From the NCBI GenBank assembly GCA_963921795.1, contig OY997649.1:60439372-60503371 (forward strand): a stretch of 64,000 nt of DNA, read 5' to 3'. Origin of the DNA: Nannobrachium achirus. Its lineage: Eukaryota > Chordata > Actinopteri > Myctophiformes > Myctophidae. The translations under genes were made by a program, and so were the position numbers. Below the pieces are notes generated by a model, which was not told the DNA's origin, searched no databases, and saw nothing but the letters and a program-made list of their open reading frames with translations. Shown here piece by piece: positions 1-64,000 of this stretch (position 1 is its first letter; the number at the start of each line of letters is the position of its first letter).

Positions 1-92
1 AGTACTTAGTCTGCTCTTTTTCCCCTCTACACCAAAGCTCTTTGCCAGATAGCAGATCTACAAGCTCAAATAATTCTAGGCCTAAATGGCTT
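1..92. repeat. Chimeric repeat: family E left part joined through HP to family A right end
   Basis: Bases 1-47 match the family E interior at 29646-29692 almost base for base. Bases 48-67 are the left arm of HP (gatagcagatctacaagctc). Bases 68-90 (aataattctaggcctaaatgg) are the right end of family A, as at 8480-8498. The right arm of HP is missing. The join therefore falls in or next to the hairpin, which suggests recombination or template switching there. Confidence 0.6.
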
Positions 93-484
93 TTAAATTA
101 CACACTGGAATCGGATCGGTCCTCGGTATCGACCGATACGAAGGTTAAATGGGACTCGGTATGGGGAAGGGGGAAACGGCATGGGTAACATCTCTAGTAG
201 TAGCAGCATCTCCAAAAAGCTTCAGCTTAATATGTTCTGCTCGCAGGAATTCCTCCAGTGTGTCAGGTATAATGATAGCCTAAACACCAGTGTTTTCCAC
301 CCTCCACAATCTCCACAGAAATCAATGTTAGGGAAACACTCCAGTTTCCACCCGAGCGGTGGCAATTTCTGCCTGGACGACTAGACGCAGTGGAGAGAGG
401 TGTTTTATGGGCATCAAGCCATCGCGCCACAGGCTATGATTGGAAATTTAATAAGCAGGAGGGGGAAATAGCCTCTTGCTCTCT
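93..484. other. No gene seen; short MITE remnant
   Basis: A remnant at about 110-140 contains ggatcggtcctcggtatcgaccgat, which resembles the ends of the element at 16291-16689. The rest holds no recognisable feature. The open frames at 181-384 and 390-764 run across low-complexity sequence and are not credible genes. Confidence 0.4.
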
Positions 485-531
485 TGGTCTCTCTCTCTCG
501 CTCTCTCTCTCTCGCTCTCTCTCTCTCTCTG
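485..531. repeat. (CT)n microsatellite
   Basis: CT dinucleotides interrupted by single G bases; it underlies a Leu/Ser-repeat pseudo-ORF on both strands. Confidence 0.9.
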
Positions 532-886
532 TACCCTTTTCTCTTCCCCTCTCAACTGCAGGGGTTTTTATAAAGCAGGAGCCACAACACACCAGTAAAT
601 TAAACTCTCTCTCCGGCTCGGAGAGAGAGACTATACGTTCTTGTCTGGGTTGTGTTGCTTGGGGAGCAGAAAAGGGAGGAGAAAAAGAAAAGAACATTCT
701 TCAAAATCAATGCGCTCTCATTAAGCATTTTTATGGGCTCAATATTTTGTGTATTACCGTGTGAAACGCTATGAAAATAAAGGCCCGGGCGCCAGGGATT
801 TGCTTCATTTCCAATATACTTGGGAGATACTGTATGTGTTATTCCTATTAGATTGACCCCCCTTTACACACCCACGCGTGCACGCG

Positions 887-1031
887 CACACACACACACA
901 CACACACACACACACACACACACACACACACACACACACACACACACACACACACACACACACACACACACACACACACACACACACACACACACACACA
1001 CACACACACACACACACACACACACACACAC
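887..1031. repeat. (CA)n microsatellite, about 145 bp
   Basis: Uninterrupted CA run preceded by a CG-interrupted purine-pyrimidine stretch (cgcgtgcacgcg), so Z-DNA-forming potential is likely. A family C MITE follows directly at 1032, and more CA/CG repeat resumes after it at about 1475-1497. Confidence 0.98.
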
Positions 1032-1468
1032 TAGGGATGGGACGATATGACAATTTCATATCACGATTATTGTGACAAAAGAAATCGCGATTTAGGATAT
1101 TATCATGATAATCAAAATCCATTATCCTGGGGCGGATCATTTGCCAAAAAATAGCCGATATACAAGCTCACAACGGGCCACAACGTGACGCGTTGTGAGC
1201 TTGTATATCGGCTATTTTTTGGCAAAGACATTGGATAGAGAGTGAAAAAAGACTGTATCAAGTACGTATAGGCTATTAAGTATATATACCTTTTACCAAT
1301 ATTAGAGGGTTTAAGTGGTACTGGACATGCAGCTCGGCAAATAAAAGGTGAATTGATCCCAGTGCATGACGGAGGACGATATCACGATACATTCAATCTC
1401 CACGATACGATTATCGTGAGTGTTTTTAATCACGATAAACGATAATATCGCTTATCGTCCCCTCCCTA
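1032..1468. mobile_element. Family C MITE (hAT-like), copy 1, with full HP
   Basis: Ends TAGGGATGGGACGATA and TATCGTCCCCTCCCTA are inverted repeats. The flanks are acacacac and acatgcac (6 of 8 match), consistent with insertion into the CA tract. The interior carries multiple ATCG/CGAT palindromes and a near-perfect HP stem at 1141-1225 bounded by ttgccaaaaaatagcc and its complement. Eight-base duplications in the sister copies at 14480, 32124 and 58234 support hAT-type transposition. No transposase is encoded. Confidence 0.85.
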
Positions 1469-2184
1469 ACATGCACACACACGCACGCGCGTGTACACAA
1501 AACACCTCCACATCCCGTCTCCCTGGTAATGCTGGACTGAATTATTGATGTTATACCACCACCAGATCCCCCCAGCCGACCGCCACACCGCCGCTGCCTG
1601 TGAAAGTCCCTTTACATGGATCTCTACTAGGCTTTGACTGGTCTCCTAGGAGCCCTTGGTTCGGTTCACACACCACACCACAGCGCACCTCGCTGACAAC
1701 ATCTAATAAAGCAGTGTGGGGAGGAGGAGGAGACGCCATGCACCCTGACATTTAAATCAATTCCTTCCTGGTGACAACTCTATGATTTTTAAACCGCTCG
1801 TTATTGCCGTCCTCTCTTCTTCGCGGGGCGACGCCAAGGAGGCGCCGCGTTCGAATTCTTCTGATCATAAAGAAAGAGCAAAAAAAAAAACGAATGAAAC
1901 AAGTATATCGGCGAATCTCCGGTGTATCTTATCTTTTCATTAAAGAGCTTAGGTGGCGAAACATACAAGAGCCTTCATATATTGGTAGAGCCTATATGGC
2001 GGTAAGGCTCCCTGTGTTGTTGGATCTCTGGCGGTGGCTGCTGATGTTTGTTAACGTTCCATCCATCCTTTTAAGACCCGCAACAAGAGGCCCATTCTAC
2101 AAATGTGTCCCAGCACCCCCAGCAGCTAGTCATCTCGGGGACTGTCATTATTCCCTGTAGCCAAAATGATTTTTTTTTTTTTTT
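1469..2184. other. No supported gene
   Basis: Mixed-composition sequence with a residual CA/CG tract at 1475-1497. The 118-codon frame at 1804-2160 has no recognisable domain and I do not call it. Confidence 0.5.
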
Positions 2185-61690: not shown

Positions 61691-62290
61691 TAGCTACCTT
61701 GAATGTGCCCTCGAGCAACGCCACCGTTATTCTACGGTTTCTGCTTTGTGACCAAGAGTAGTACTGACTGACTACAGTTATAATGTACACTGGTCAGCTC
61801 TCAAAGTGCGGATTTGTGCTACCATGGGAATGTGAAGCAAATTACAGATGGAAAGAAGAAACGTGTGAAAATGAAAGAAGAAATATCAGACTGAATAAAA
61901 TCCCTGTAATATGATGTTCTTAAGTAGGATTATCATGATTCAGCCACGGCACGCTATGATTCTGCAATAATCGAAAATGTGTTGCAGATTAGCCTGAGGT
62001 TATTTGACTCAGCAAACATTTAATGAGCAAAACAAGTGTGAAAAGGGAATTCTTTGTGGGCTCATCAAGATAAACCAATAGCAACTACTTGTGCCTCATA
62101 CTAGACCGTCATTTTGAAAGTGAAGCAAACAAACCTGTGTTTTTTATATTCTGCAACAGGAACTACACTTAAATTAGGGATTATCCAAGATGTTTACGTG
62201 ATTCAAAATGGTCCTGTGTGACATAGCATACGTTCAATGACAAGCTAATCATATTAACTTGCAATAGAGTTCATCCAGGCCTGAGGAGAG
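61691..62290. other. No supported gene
   Basis: AT-rich, apparently unique; nothing recognised. Confidence 0.4.
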
Positions 62291-62296
62291 ATATAA

Positions 62297-62726
62297 TAGG
62301 CAATTTAAGCAGCCCGTTTCTACAACCGCGGCGTGAGGCGGGGTGAGATCTCGCGTTTGCGAACGCCCATCATTTCGACAACCGAGCGTCGGGAGGGTTA
62401 GCGACTCACCCCACCGAGGTTAGGGTAAGGGTGTTAAAAAGATGACACATAGAAACAGCGAAAAGCTACGACTGCTATGACGTAATCACCGTAGCAGTCA
62501 AAATCGTTAAGCAAACAGCCGTCGGCGACGGGGGCCCACCCCTTTTACTGAACTCTTTGGTTCCCATGGCGACGCGACTACGCAGCAGGCGTTGTAGCCA
62601 CAACGTGGAAAGGGAGATTCTGGCGTTGTAGAGACGGCTGCGACGGCGGCAGGTTTATCTGTCGAGCACTGATCATTTCCGGTTACCGTTGTCATCTGCC
62701 GTAGCCGTCCATAGCTTAAATTGCCT
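62297..62726. mobile_element. CpG-rich element with inverted ends
   Basis: taggcaatttaagc and gcttaaattgccta are exact inverted repeats bounding 430 bp of CpG-rich sequence that contains cgtagcagtc, cgacggcggc and acaaccg words. No target duplication was seen, so the class is open. Confidence 0.5.
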
Positions 62727-63660
62727 ACTGTATATGGCAGTGCTACATCTTTGGCTTATCTTTTCATCATAAGCCAAGTCTACTCTTACACACCTTACTC
62801 AAAGAAAATGCACTTTTCATAACATTTTGTTTTCTACAGAGGACAACGGACTATTATAGTACTTGAGTATCTAAAGCACAAGGAACCTCTGAGAGGGTTC
62901 AGCATTCTGATAACAGTTCTCCTCGTCTAGCTAACAACACCTCCTTTGGCACAAGACAAATTGTAGCAGAGGTACTTTATCTACAATTCTGCACCATCGC
63001 ATTCCACCTTTGTGGAATGCGATAAGGGCAGAATAATCCCTCCCAGGCCTAACCCTTTATACAGTACCTGGAGGCCACTAACCATAACCATATCCCTAAC
63101 CAATCTCCACATCACTGACTGAGTAAAATCAGTTATCACCCACATTAATCAAAGTAGCTTCACTGGCTGAGGTATTCTCATACAGCGGCAGGCAGAATAG
63201 AAGTACCATCAGAGATCTAACTTTGTTGTGTTCTTTTTTTTTTTTTTTTCGAGTGCGATCTGCACTGTATCTCTGTACAGGGAATCCTTTGCCAGGTATT
63301 ACTGAATGAAAACAATCTCGAGAAGCACATTCGTGGGGGTATAGCTTCCATAATACCTCCTTCACACCACACCTCCTCAGTCAGACTGAATTCTGGGATA
63401 GGGCACGCTTGGTAATTACTTCCAGAGGCTGAGAGGGTGAAAGAGGCAGACATGAAGGCTTTTGGTATAAAAGGCAGAGTCAACGTCAAGCTGAGGTACT
63501 ACTGTACTCTACTGTACTGTACTGTAACCACTGCAACATTTCATGTTCTTGTGTTGCACTATTCAATTGTGAGCCAGTAATCTAGTTCCAAAGTCGCAAA
63601 TAGTAACTATGATACTTTGTTAAGTAGCCTAGATTTTTAAAGATTGGAGTAACAGTATCT
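62727..63660. other. No supported gene; small hairpin
   Basis: cgcattccacctttgtggaatgcg at 62998-63023 (in parts cgcattccac/gtggaatgcg) is a short perfect hairpin. A tactgtactgta run is at 63500-63525. Otherwise unassigned. Confidence 0.4.
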
Positions 63661-63664
63661 ACAG

Positions 63665-63874
63665 CAGGGGTTTTCAAAGTGGGTGATGCCCTGGGGTGCC
63701 GTGACGGCAGTCCAGGGGTGCCGCGAGATAATTTGATAATATTTGGAATTTATTTGGAGACTTGAAAAAAAATGTATTATCATTTTAAACTTGAAGTACA
63801 AAGTTATTTTCGGTCAGTGCTAACCAAAATGGCTATTATTTCAACGTTTTCTTGCAACATAATCACTAAAATAT
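63665..63874. mobile_element. hAT MITE (CAGGGGTTTTCAAAG end), cut by family D
   Basis: Begins caggggttttcaaagtggg; gcagtccaggggtgccgcgag, ataatatttggaatttattgg-like and accaaaatggctatta match 21363-21689 in reverse. It is interrupted at 63875. Confidence 0.75.
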
Positions 63875-64000
63875 CGTCACTGTCGGGCAGAAACCTCGTA
63901 TCTCCAAGTTTCAAATGTGTACGTCTTTTGGTAAAGCAAAGCCCTGCTTCATCATACAAGACTGTCGCACAAAACTAGTGAAAACAGCCGATCTACAAGC
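63875..64000. mobile_element. Family D MITE, copy 8, cut by window end
   Basis: Begins cgtcactgtcgggcagaaacc; the HP left arm gtgaaaacagccgatctaca starts at about 63978 and the window ends inside it. Confidence 0.85.

Follow-up and report, generated by a model that had tools for sequence, protein, structure and literature searches.

What is one palindrome doing inside so many families of miniature inverted-repeat transposable elements (MITEs) with different ends? The question is raised by a 64,000-nucleotide stretch of the myctophid fish Nannobrachium achirus (GenBank assembly GCA_963921795.1, contig OY997649.1, positions 60,439,372 to 60,503,371 of the forward strand), hereafter the window, in which a hairpin-forming module that we call HP recurs throughout. 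A first-pass annotation of these letters had offered two explanations: a parasite that spreads through MITEs, or a cis-acting signal that non-autonomous elements acquire repeatedly. We favor, at a probability of about 40%, the reading that HP is a structured module, carried by hAT-like MITEs and by one further family, D, that is kept in source copies and acts in cis.

Results

The data support HP as one homologous unit of mostly constant length. A profile of the unit describes a 71-bp palindrome with 34-bp arms and a 3-nt loop. Exactly this length is found in 47 of 78 full-range matches, where the first-pass annotation had given 35–85 bp, and many shorter copies look like centre deletions. The arm reads AAAATAGC(A/C)GAT(C/A)TACAAGC(T/A)CACA and leads through a variable inner stem and the 3-nt loop to a mirror copy. 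The features first described are all borne out, namely an outer arm that stays constant, a (T/A)CACA step after it and an inner stem particular to each family, and the palindrome is present at all seven positions that had been given as examples. The stem comprises 34 bp plus a palindromic extension of 1–14 family-specific paired bases (11 copies). Folded as DNA, five HP single strands gave −39 to −52 kcal/mol.

HP is abundant in the window and across the genome. A profile search with the 71-bp unit found 40 matches in the window; the claimed recurrence holds, at a lower count than the roughly 50 places first reported. A 20-base arm allowing up to three mismatches matched 71 times in the window against 0.02 in shuffled sequence, which rules out a chance origin of the arms, one check that the first-pass annotation had set. 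Genome-wide, exact matches to the arm, with two sites left free, number 150,462 + 150,703 = 301,165 (at most two per palindrome), against 0 for its reversed control. Twenty random 10-kb stretches (200 kb in all, drawn from positions 2–40 Mb of contigs 1–22) hold 71 HP matches, whole and partial. HP also accounts for 28 of this sample's 39 strong, non-simple palindromes. Extrapolation to 1.66 Gb would give about 6 x 10^5 copies, whole or partial. Two arm patterns had no exact match in viral and prokaryote collections.

The stem covaries between families. We compared 11 families as full-length copies picked from a larger number of flank families, F7 and 6/15 being distantly related. Both sides had changed at 23 of 42 pairs, and the covariation score was 0.320 against 0.140 in shuffles (0/500) and at most 0.092 when slid. 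All eight outer flank pairs, the outermost often unpaired, and many inner pairs changed on both sides; positions 1–25 of HP are mostly fixed in sequence. These paired changes suggest that the folded shape matters and that HP is inherited or passed on as a unit.

Within families, resting copies mutate mostly arm by arm, whereas the family-founding lines kept pairing. Symmetric changes were not in excess among eight copies of D. Among 51 full copies of fam21, with position 9 excluded, three were symmetric against 1.96 expected and 108 were one-sided (p = 0.31). Since the resting copies of D and fam21 lack a pairing excess, pairing was kept in source copies; its upkeep between but not within families points to a role while elements multiply.

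HP arms diverge less than their flanks in two families. We compared copies found through their flanks at non-CpG sites, after filtering for alignment trouble in AT-rich flanks, which may still contribute. D arms differed at 20 of 753 sites (2.7%) and flanks at 218 of 2327 (9.4%; p = 6e-11). Singleton differences gave 1.1% against 2.7% (p = 0.013), and shared differences p = 0.0008. For family A, 20 of 38 flank matches were retained, L011_868 and L018_7743 among them having no alignable HP. Its singletons amounted to 0.5% in arms against 1.9% in flanks (p = 0.005), and all differences together gave p = 3e-7.

The HP loop reads in both orientations between unchanged flanks in two families. F7 copies carry AAC in 23 of 63 cases and GTT in 16; in fam21 the counts are 27 GTT and 14 AAC among 51. 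Inversion accounts for this pattern simply, as three matching substitutions would not, and implies that HP folds or that strands switch there. Position 9 bears on how the unit moved. An A/C difference between the two arms recurs there in several families, which suggests that HP travelled whole and was not rebuilt from one arm. F7 copies chosen for C in the left arm at this position have C on both arms in 57 of 63 cases.

HP looks ancestral to the three families tested for empty sites, D, fam21 and F7. For D, exact flanks enclose 0–30 bases in 432 copies. Among the 100 of these listed there was no clean join, the shortest insert being 6 bases, and nearly all retained arm pieces, a few showing only AT-rich bases or nothing recognised. 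Flank profiles gave 18 pairs of D flanks, with HP or a remnant in 17 and other sequence with one diverged arm in the last (L014). In fam21, 236 short copies stand against 1643 HP-bearing ones with 58–88 bases; the 100 short copies listed include no clean join, and nearly all retain HP pieces. F7 has 22 short copies against 572 with HP. Most of the 19 that are not clean contain recognisable pieces. Three are clean, with target duplications of their own, a 4-bp CAAA microhomology at the junction and, by eye, a spread over both F7 subfamilies. We read the clean copies as recurrent deletions; a true empty site would also fit, and an HP-less family A relative (L018) allows the same two readings. 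It is the scarcity or absence of clean empty sites among the short copies listed for these families that makes HP look ancestral to them. HP may yet be a parasite, but we found no clear target duplication around HP itself and could not establish its insertion into an empty site, since the clean F7 copies fit deletion at the microhomology equally well.

HP is inherited within flank clades. Flank sides cluster into 25 multi-copy clusters and 47 singletons, and a more sensitive, HP-anchored alignment merges many of the clusters, with scores up to 25. We considered the best 40 pairs against a 99.9% null point of 10.5 from single shuffled pairs, so that, with so many pairs compared, scores near 13–15 could arise by chance. 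The merged groups are F7 with 6/15 and others, A, fam21, 44/45/58, 7/53 and 54/59, and by eye the flank families make up roughly nine or ten clades. Clusters 6/12/36/41 and 11/15/55, among others, share distant homology with HP at an identical position, and inheritance within a clade follows from this sameness of place. Between clades, the best 40 pairs showed no flank homology except a weak AT-rich match of D to the TAGGGCTG family (score 15); some transfer, or else a very old common origin, therefore remains necessary. Flank pairings gave no clear half-swaps between clades at HP, although no systematic search for them was made. Repeated acquisition, the second half of the original cis-signal proposal, accordingly loses ground within clades, where carriers that look unrelated share descent.

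Apart from D, the carriers whose ends we found are, judged by those ends, hAT-like MITEs with 8-bp duplications. The main carrier search required 8-bp duplications, matching ends and CA or TA starts, and is blind to other kinds of carrier. It returned 36 rows; three within HP arms were dropped, leaving 33 candidate elements, the low-scoring of which may be chance. HP lies in 19 of the 33, against a mean of 6.6 and a maximum of 15 in 5000 runs of random placement. Four of the 19 owe it to a nested D element (17316, 31629, L024:217 and L013:2678) and one is doubtful (L021:4326). The other 14 candidates include two with HP remnants seen by eye (14480–14856 and 16291–16689) and an F7 copy without the hairpin (L020:790). 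Inspection by eye also shows 8-bp duplications in three F7 copies found by internal sequence (L029–L031), exact in two and with a mismatch in the third. Short CAGNG or TAGNG termini are a hAT element motif. The carrier termini fit this form, in a search that itself demanded CA or TA starts; seven were found (TAGGGATGGG, TAGGGCTGTC, CAGTGTTG, CAGGKACGTG, CAGGGGCGTC, CAGTGGTGG and TAGAGATG, the last with a remnant only).

Family D, the HP-carrying family CGTCGTTGTCGGG, nests inside CAGGGACGTGCTGG elements and lacks the 8-bp duplication of hAT elements. Two copies show 4-bp duplications (ATAT and ATGG), in agreement with the first-pass annotation; the remaining D ends sit in AT-rich target, where duplication length is ambiguous. 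That annotation had also assigned TTAA duplications to its families A and E. We infer that these correspond to our two-hairpin family A type, A and E having lacked coordinates, and this type has 8-bp duplications and hAT-like ends instead. An example is the forward-strand element at 37183–37714, with GCTACGGC on both sides and HPs at 37258–37328 and 37562–37632. TTAA was not confirmed at the ends of such elements. The four TTAA pairs around hairpins in the window all lie in flank adjoining the HP arms, and a TTAA-bounded repeat in L009 resolves into two inverted elements, each with its own 8-bp duplication.

Two further hAT carriers of the first-pass annotation stand as described, both on the forward strand: the CAGTGTTG element at 13091–13470, found by duplication search and profile (8-bp duplication GTCAAGTC, partial HP at 13328–13368), and the TAGAGATG element at 16291–16689 (8-bp duplication CTTTTACT), which holds by eye a shortened, centre-deleted HP remnant. 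The foldback at 2185, also listed as a carrier, has no profile match. The closest is a weak partial HP at 2915–2953 (15.7 bits, chance possible). Transposase genes were sought by scanning eight of the 16 longest open reading frames in the sample; three matched other domains and five nothing. Four of the other eight come from L028. L028:4192–10000 holds four long open reading frames.

Hairpins of the window

The window's hairpins, given without strand, fall largely into families A, D and F7. Family A profile matches include an HP cut down to 64 bp (5433–5496), full units at 5748–5818 and 38013–38083, and a half HP with family A flank on one side (7427–7461). HPs of family A type lie at 21101–21171 and in the partnered matches 7975–8049 and 8388–8458, 9928–9998 and 10569–10639, 26569–26639 and 26994–27064, and 33078–33148 and 33505–33575. 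An HP with a centre deletion has family A flank on one side (38288–38332).

D is present both nested and complete. Forward-strand CAGGGACGTGCTGG elements enclose it at 17316–17807 (duplication with one mismatch), where its HP at 17553–17623 has 34 of 34 pairs, and at 31629–32033 (duplication CTTCAGAC), where the HP is damaged (31858–31901). A complete D element of 258 bp spans 53423–53680, with duplication ATGG and HP at 53504–53574. Profile matches at 19182–19252, an example of the position-9 arm difference, and 38925–38995 are also HPs of D, as are a centre-deleted one (48688–48727) and one in which position 5 is unlike other D copies in both arms (49383–49453).

F7, with hAT-like TAGGGATGGG ends, contributes a profile match at 1148–1218, whose palindromic extension is TTTGCCAA/TTGGCAAA, and two forward-strand elements: 32124–32939 (duplication CATACAGT, HP at 32239–32308) and the 381-bp element 58234–58614 (duplication GGTATAGC, HP at 58361–58428). 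A diverged HP at 58880–58948 has F7-related flanks, and the HP at 56693–56763 belongs to flank family 6/15, the distant relative of F7. Other profile matches are an HP of flank family 7/19 (3628–3698), diverged copies at 5010–5084 (75 bp) and 49694–49765, and partial ones at 18610–18670, 25966–26018 (weak), 29697–29749 (flank cluster 6), 49062–49122 and 55663–55725. A shortened HP at 35774–35835 has similar flanks on either side, and the flanks of the HP at 56401–56471 were unmatched by the other copies compared.

Some arrangements of HP and some other palindromes deserve record. L014:4494–4532 is an inside-out HP, with two outer arms back to back. Near the start of contig C1, at about 26–35 kb, four near-identical HP carriers (L001–L004) are spaced about 2–3 kb apart, with long inverted repeats around three of them (L001, L002 and L004). 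A second fold-back family, with core CCCCCATTGATTCCGG, occurs in the window at 4312–4384 and 54963–55202 and in the sample at L015:8333 and L026:9400; the copies look like one family, and their flanks look palindromic too. The copy at 54963–55202 is a long fold-back whose stem score of 95 is the highest among the window's non-HP palindromes. A different palindrome, GGTCCATTTGGTTTCATTTG, lies at 6486–6555 within an HP-less hAT-like element (6233–6730), at L013:8017–8094 and at L006:891–1150, where related units stand 48 bp apart.

Discussion

HP may be a structured signal that helps its carriers multiply. It would be inherited with each family from source copies, and pairing would be retained in those that transpose because the hairpin aids copy gain in cis. 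The relevant fold would most likely be of DNA, either an extruded cruciform or a single-stranded hairpin formed during replication or gap repair. Together with the fixed part of the arm (positions 1–25), it might recruit a protein, or forks might stall at it, so that the element is copied and not only moved. Old recombination or capture would have brought HP into several MITE clades, within each of which it then descended. Data underlie the structure, the ancestry within families and the loop inversion, while any benefit and any partner are our inference. A cis-acting signal, as first proposed, gains from stem covariation between families without co-change in two of three families, from the lower divergence of arms relative to flanks in two families, and from the excess of HP in candidate elements; its repeated acquisition is upheld only in part. 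In a wider form, HP would be a general amplification signal, a DNA hairpin able to work with several different transposases because its target is host replication or repair and not any one transposase. Handed from one MITE lineage to another, it would have ended up as the genome's commonest strong palindrome, a proposal that we regard as unlikely.

Several observations weigh against a cis-acting signal kept by selection for pairing. Positions 9, 13 and 23 are often unlike between arms, and position 9 is A/C across the arms in 30 of 51 fam21 copies, a pattern not expected if pairing were strictly required. F7 does show more symmetric changes than expected (63 full copies, positions 17–34; 19 against 8.1, p < 1/5000), ten of the 19 at position 33, which implies some arm-to-arm copying or subfamily structure. 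Either constraint in source copies or homogenisation between copies would lower arm divergence. In line with the latter, the HP of D also shows less CpG decay (6/68 against 35/166, p = 0.024); in family A the reduction is not significant (p = 0.28). The loop of family A has one orientation in 14 of 15 copies, so inversion is not equally common everywhere. Finally, hAT-like types without HP, such as CAGGGGTTCCC and TAGGGGTGGGCG, occur in the same sample.

HP could instead be a neutral passenger, captured by template switching or break repair and hitch-hiking thereafter, each capture remaking the palindrome and mirroring a few flank bases. The family-specific extension, which mirrors the flank, is what such captures would leave, and one possible reading of the F7 junction without hairpin, TTTGCCAAAGAC, is an empty site that shows a CAAA duplication and a mirrored flank. 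Donors would be everywhere, given the density of HP in the 200-kb sample, and loop inversion itself implies that strands switch at the stem. A remade palindrome, however, would be perfect, and the recurring arm difference at position 9 is not. The clean hairpin-less F7 copies, few beside the HP-bearing ones and present in both subfamilies, fit repeated deletion, and arms diverge less than flanks. On balance we consider a passenger somewhat unlikely.

Descent of all carriers from a single old hAT-like MITE, with ends and flanks diverged or swapped and HP staying recognisable, would explain why flank clusters share distant homology with HP in an identical place and why carriers with known ends, D excepted, are hAT-like with 8-bp duplications. 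The termini listed above nonetheless differ, D duplicates 4 bp, and most clades show no clear homology among the best 40 flank pairs; we find this origin hard to credit. Still less persuasive is mutational upkeep, in which the arms correct each other during replication or transposition and the element gains nothing. The symmetric excess in F7, individual D copies whose two arms carry matching changes and the strand switching implied by loop inversion are what such correction would produce. The excess is absent from fam21 and from the eight D copies, however, and position 9 remains unlike between the arms in many copies. Least of all do we expect HP to act as RNA, with MITE transcripts folding into a 71-nt hairpin that yields small RNAs: its length and near-perfect stem would resemble small-RNA precursors, yet no Rfam family reaches its gathering score in the window, which rules out a described RNA family as the identity of HP there and bears on described families only.

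Three things set HP apart from its known relatives: its scale, its presence across duplication types and its covarying stem. The CMITEs of Acropora corals, in the part of their account considered here, are families with different termini that have in common a 75-bp internal region, which is better conserved from family to family than the ends are, is of unknown origin and has a suggested role in transposition; they are piggyBac-like, about 100 bp long, with TTAA, and number an estimated 1600 or so in one genome (PMC2872659). The likeness lies in an internal region common to families with different termini, 71 bp long in HP, which is likewise more alike between families than ends and flanks are. 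HP carriers, in contrast, are hAT-like with 8-bp duplications, plus one 4-bp family, and the arm count is about 3 x 10^5; HP is also a palindrome with a covarying stem, and those portions of the CMITE account describe no palindrome.

The zebrafish MITE Angel (Izsvak 1999) has a palindromic form. According to a partial account, its single strands self-pair in vitro, and insertion of an extrachromosomally amplified stem-loop was proposed (PMC12628747). Angel is thus another fish MITE with self-pairing single strands; from that description alone, it is the MITE itself, whereas HP is a module within several. Stowaway Ost35 is of the mariner type. Its transposition in rice is enhanced by internal MITE sequence, in an account drawn on in part (PMC3660474). 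To that extent it offers a precedent for a role of HP, but in one family and with no shared hairpin. Small inversions in hairpin loops between inverted repeats are recorded for chloroplast DNA in the relevant extract (PMC2903610). The loop flips there as in HP, at plastid spacer loci rather than in many nuclear MITE copies. A link between Tol2 and internal inverted repeats has reportedly been drawn as well. HP strings in print led only to an unrelated alga paper; Repbase and Dfam lay outside that search, so we do not claim that HP is unpublished.

A folded module shared by many families, with some 300,000 exact arms, allows a direct test of the open question why a few MITE families explode in number. 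HP copies also form a large natural set in which to study, in a vertebrate genome, how hairpins fold, loops invert and palindromes are deleted.

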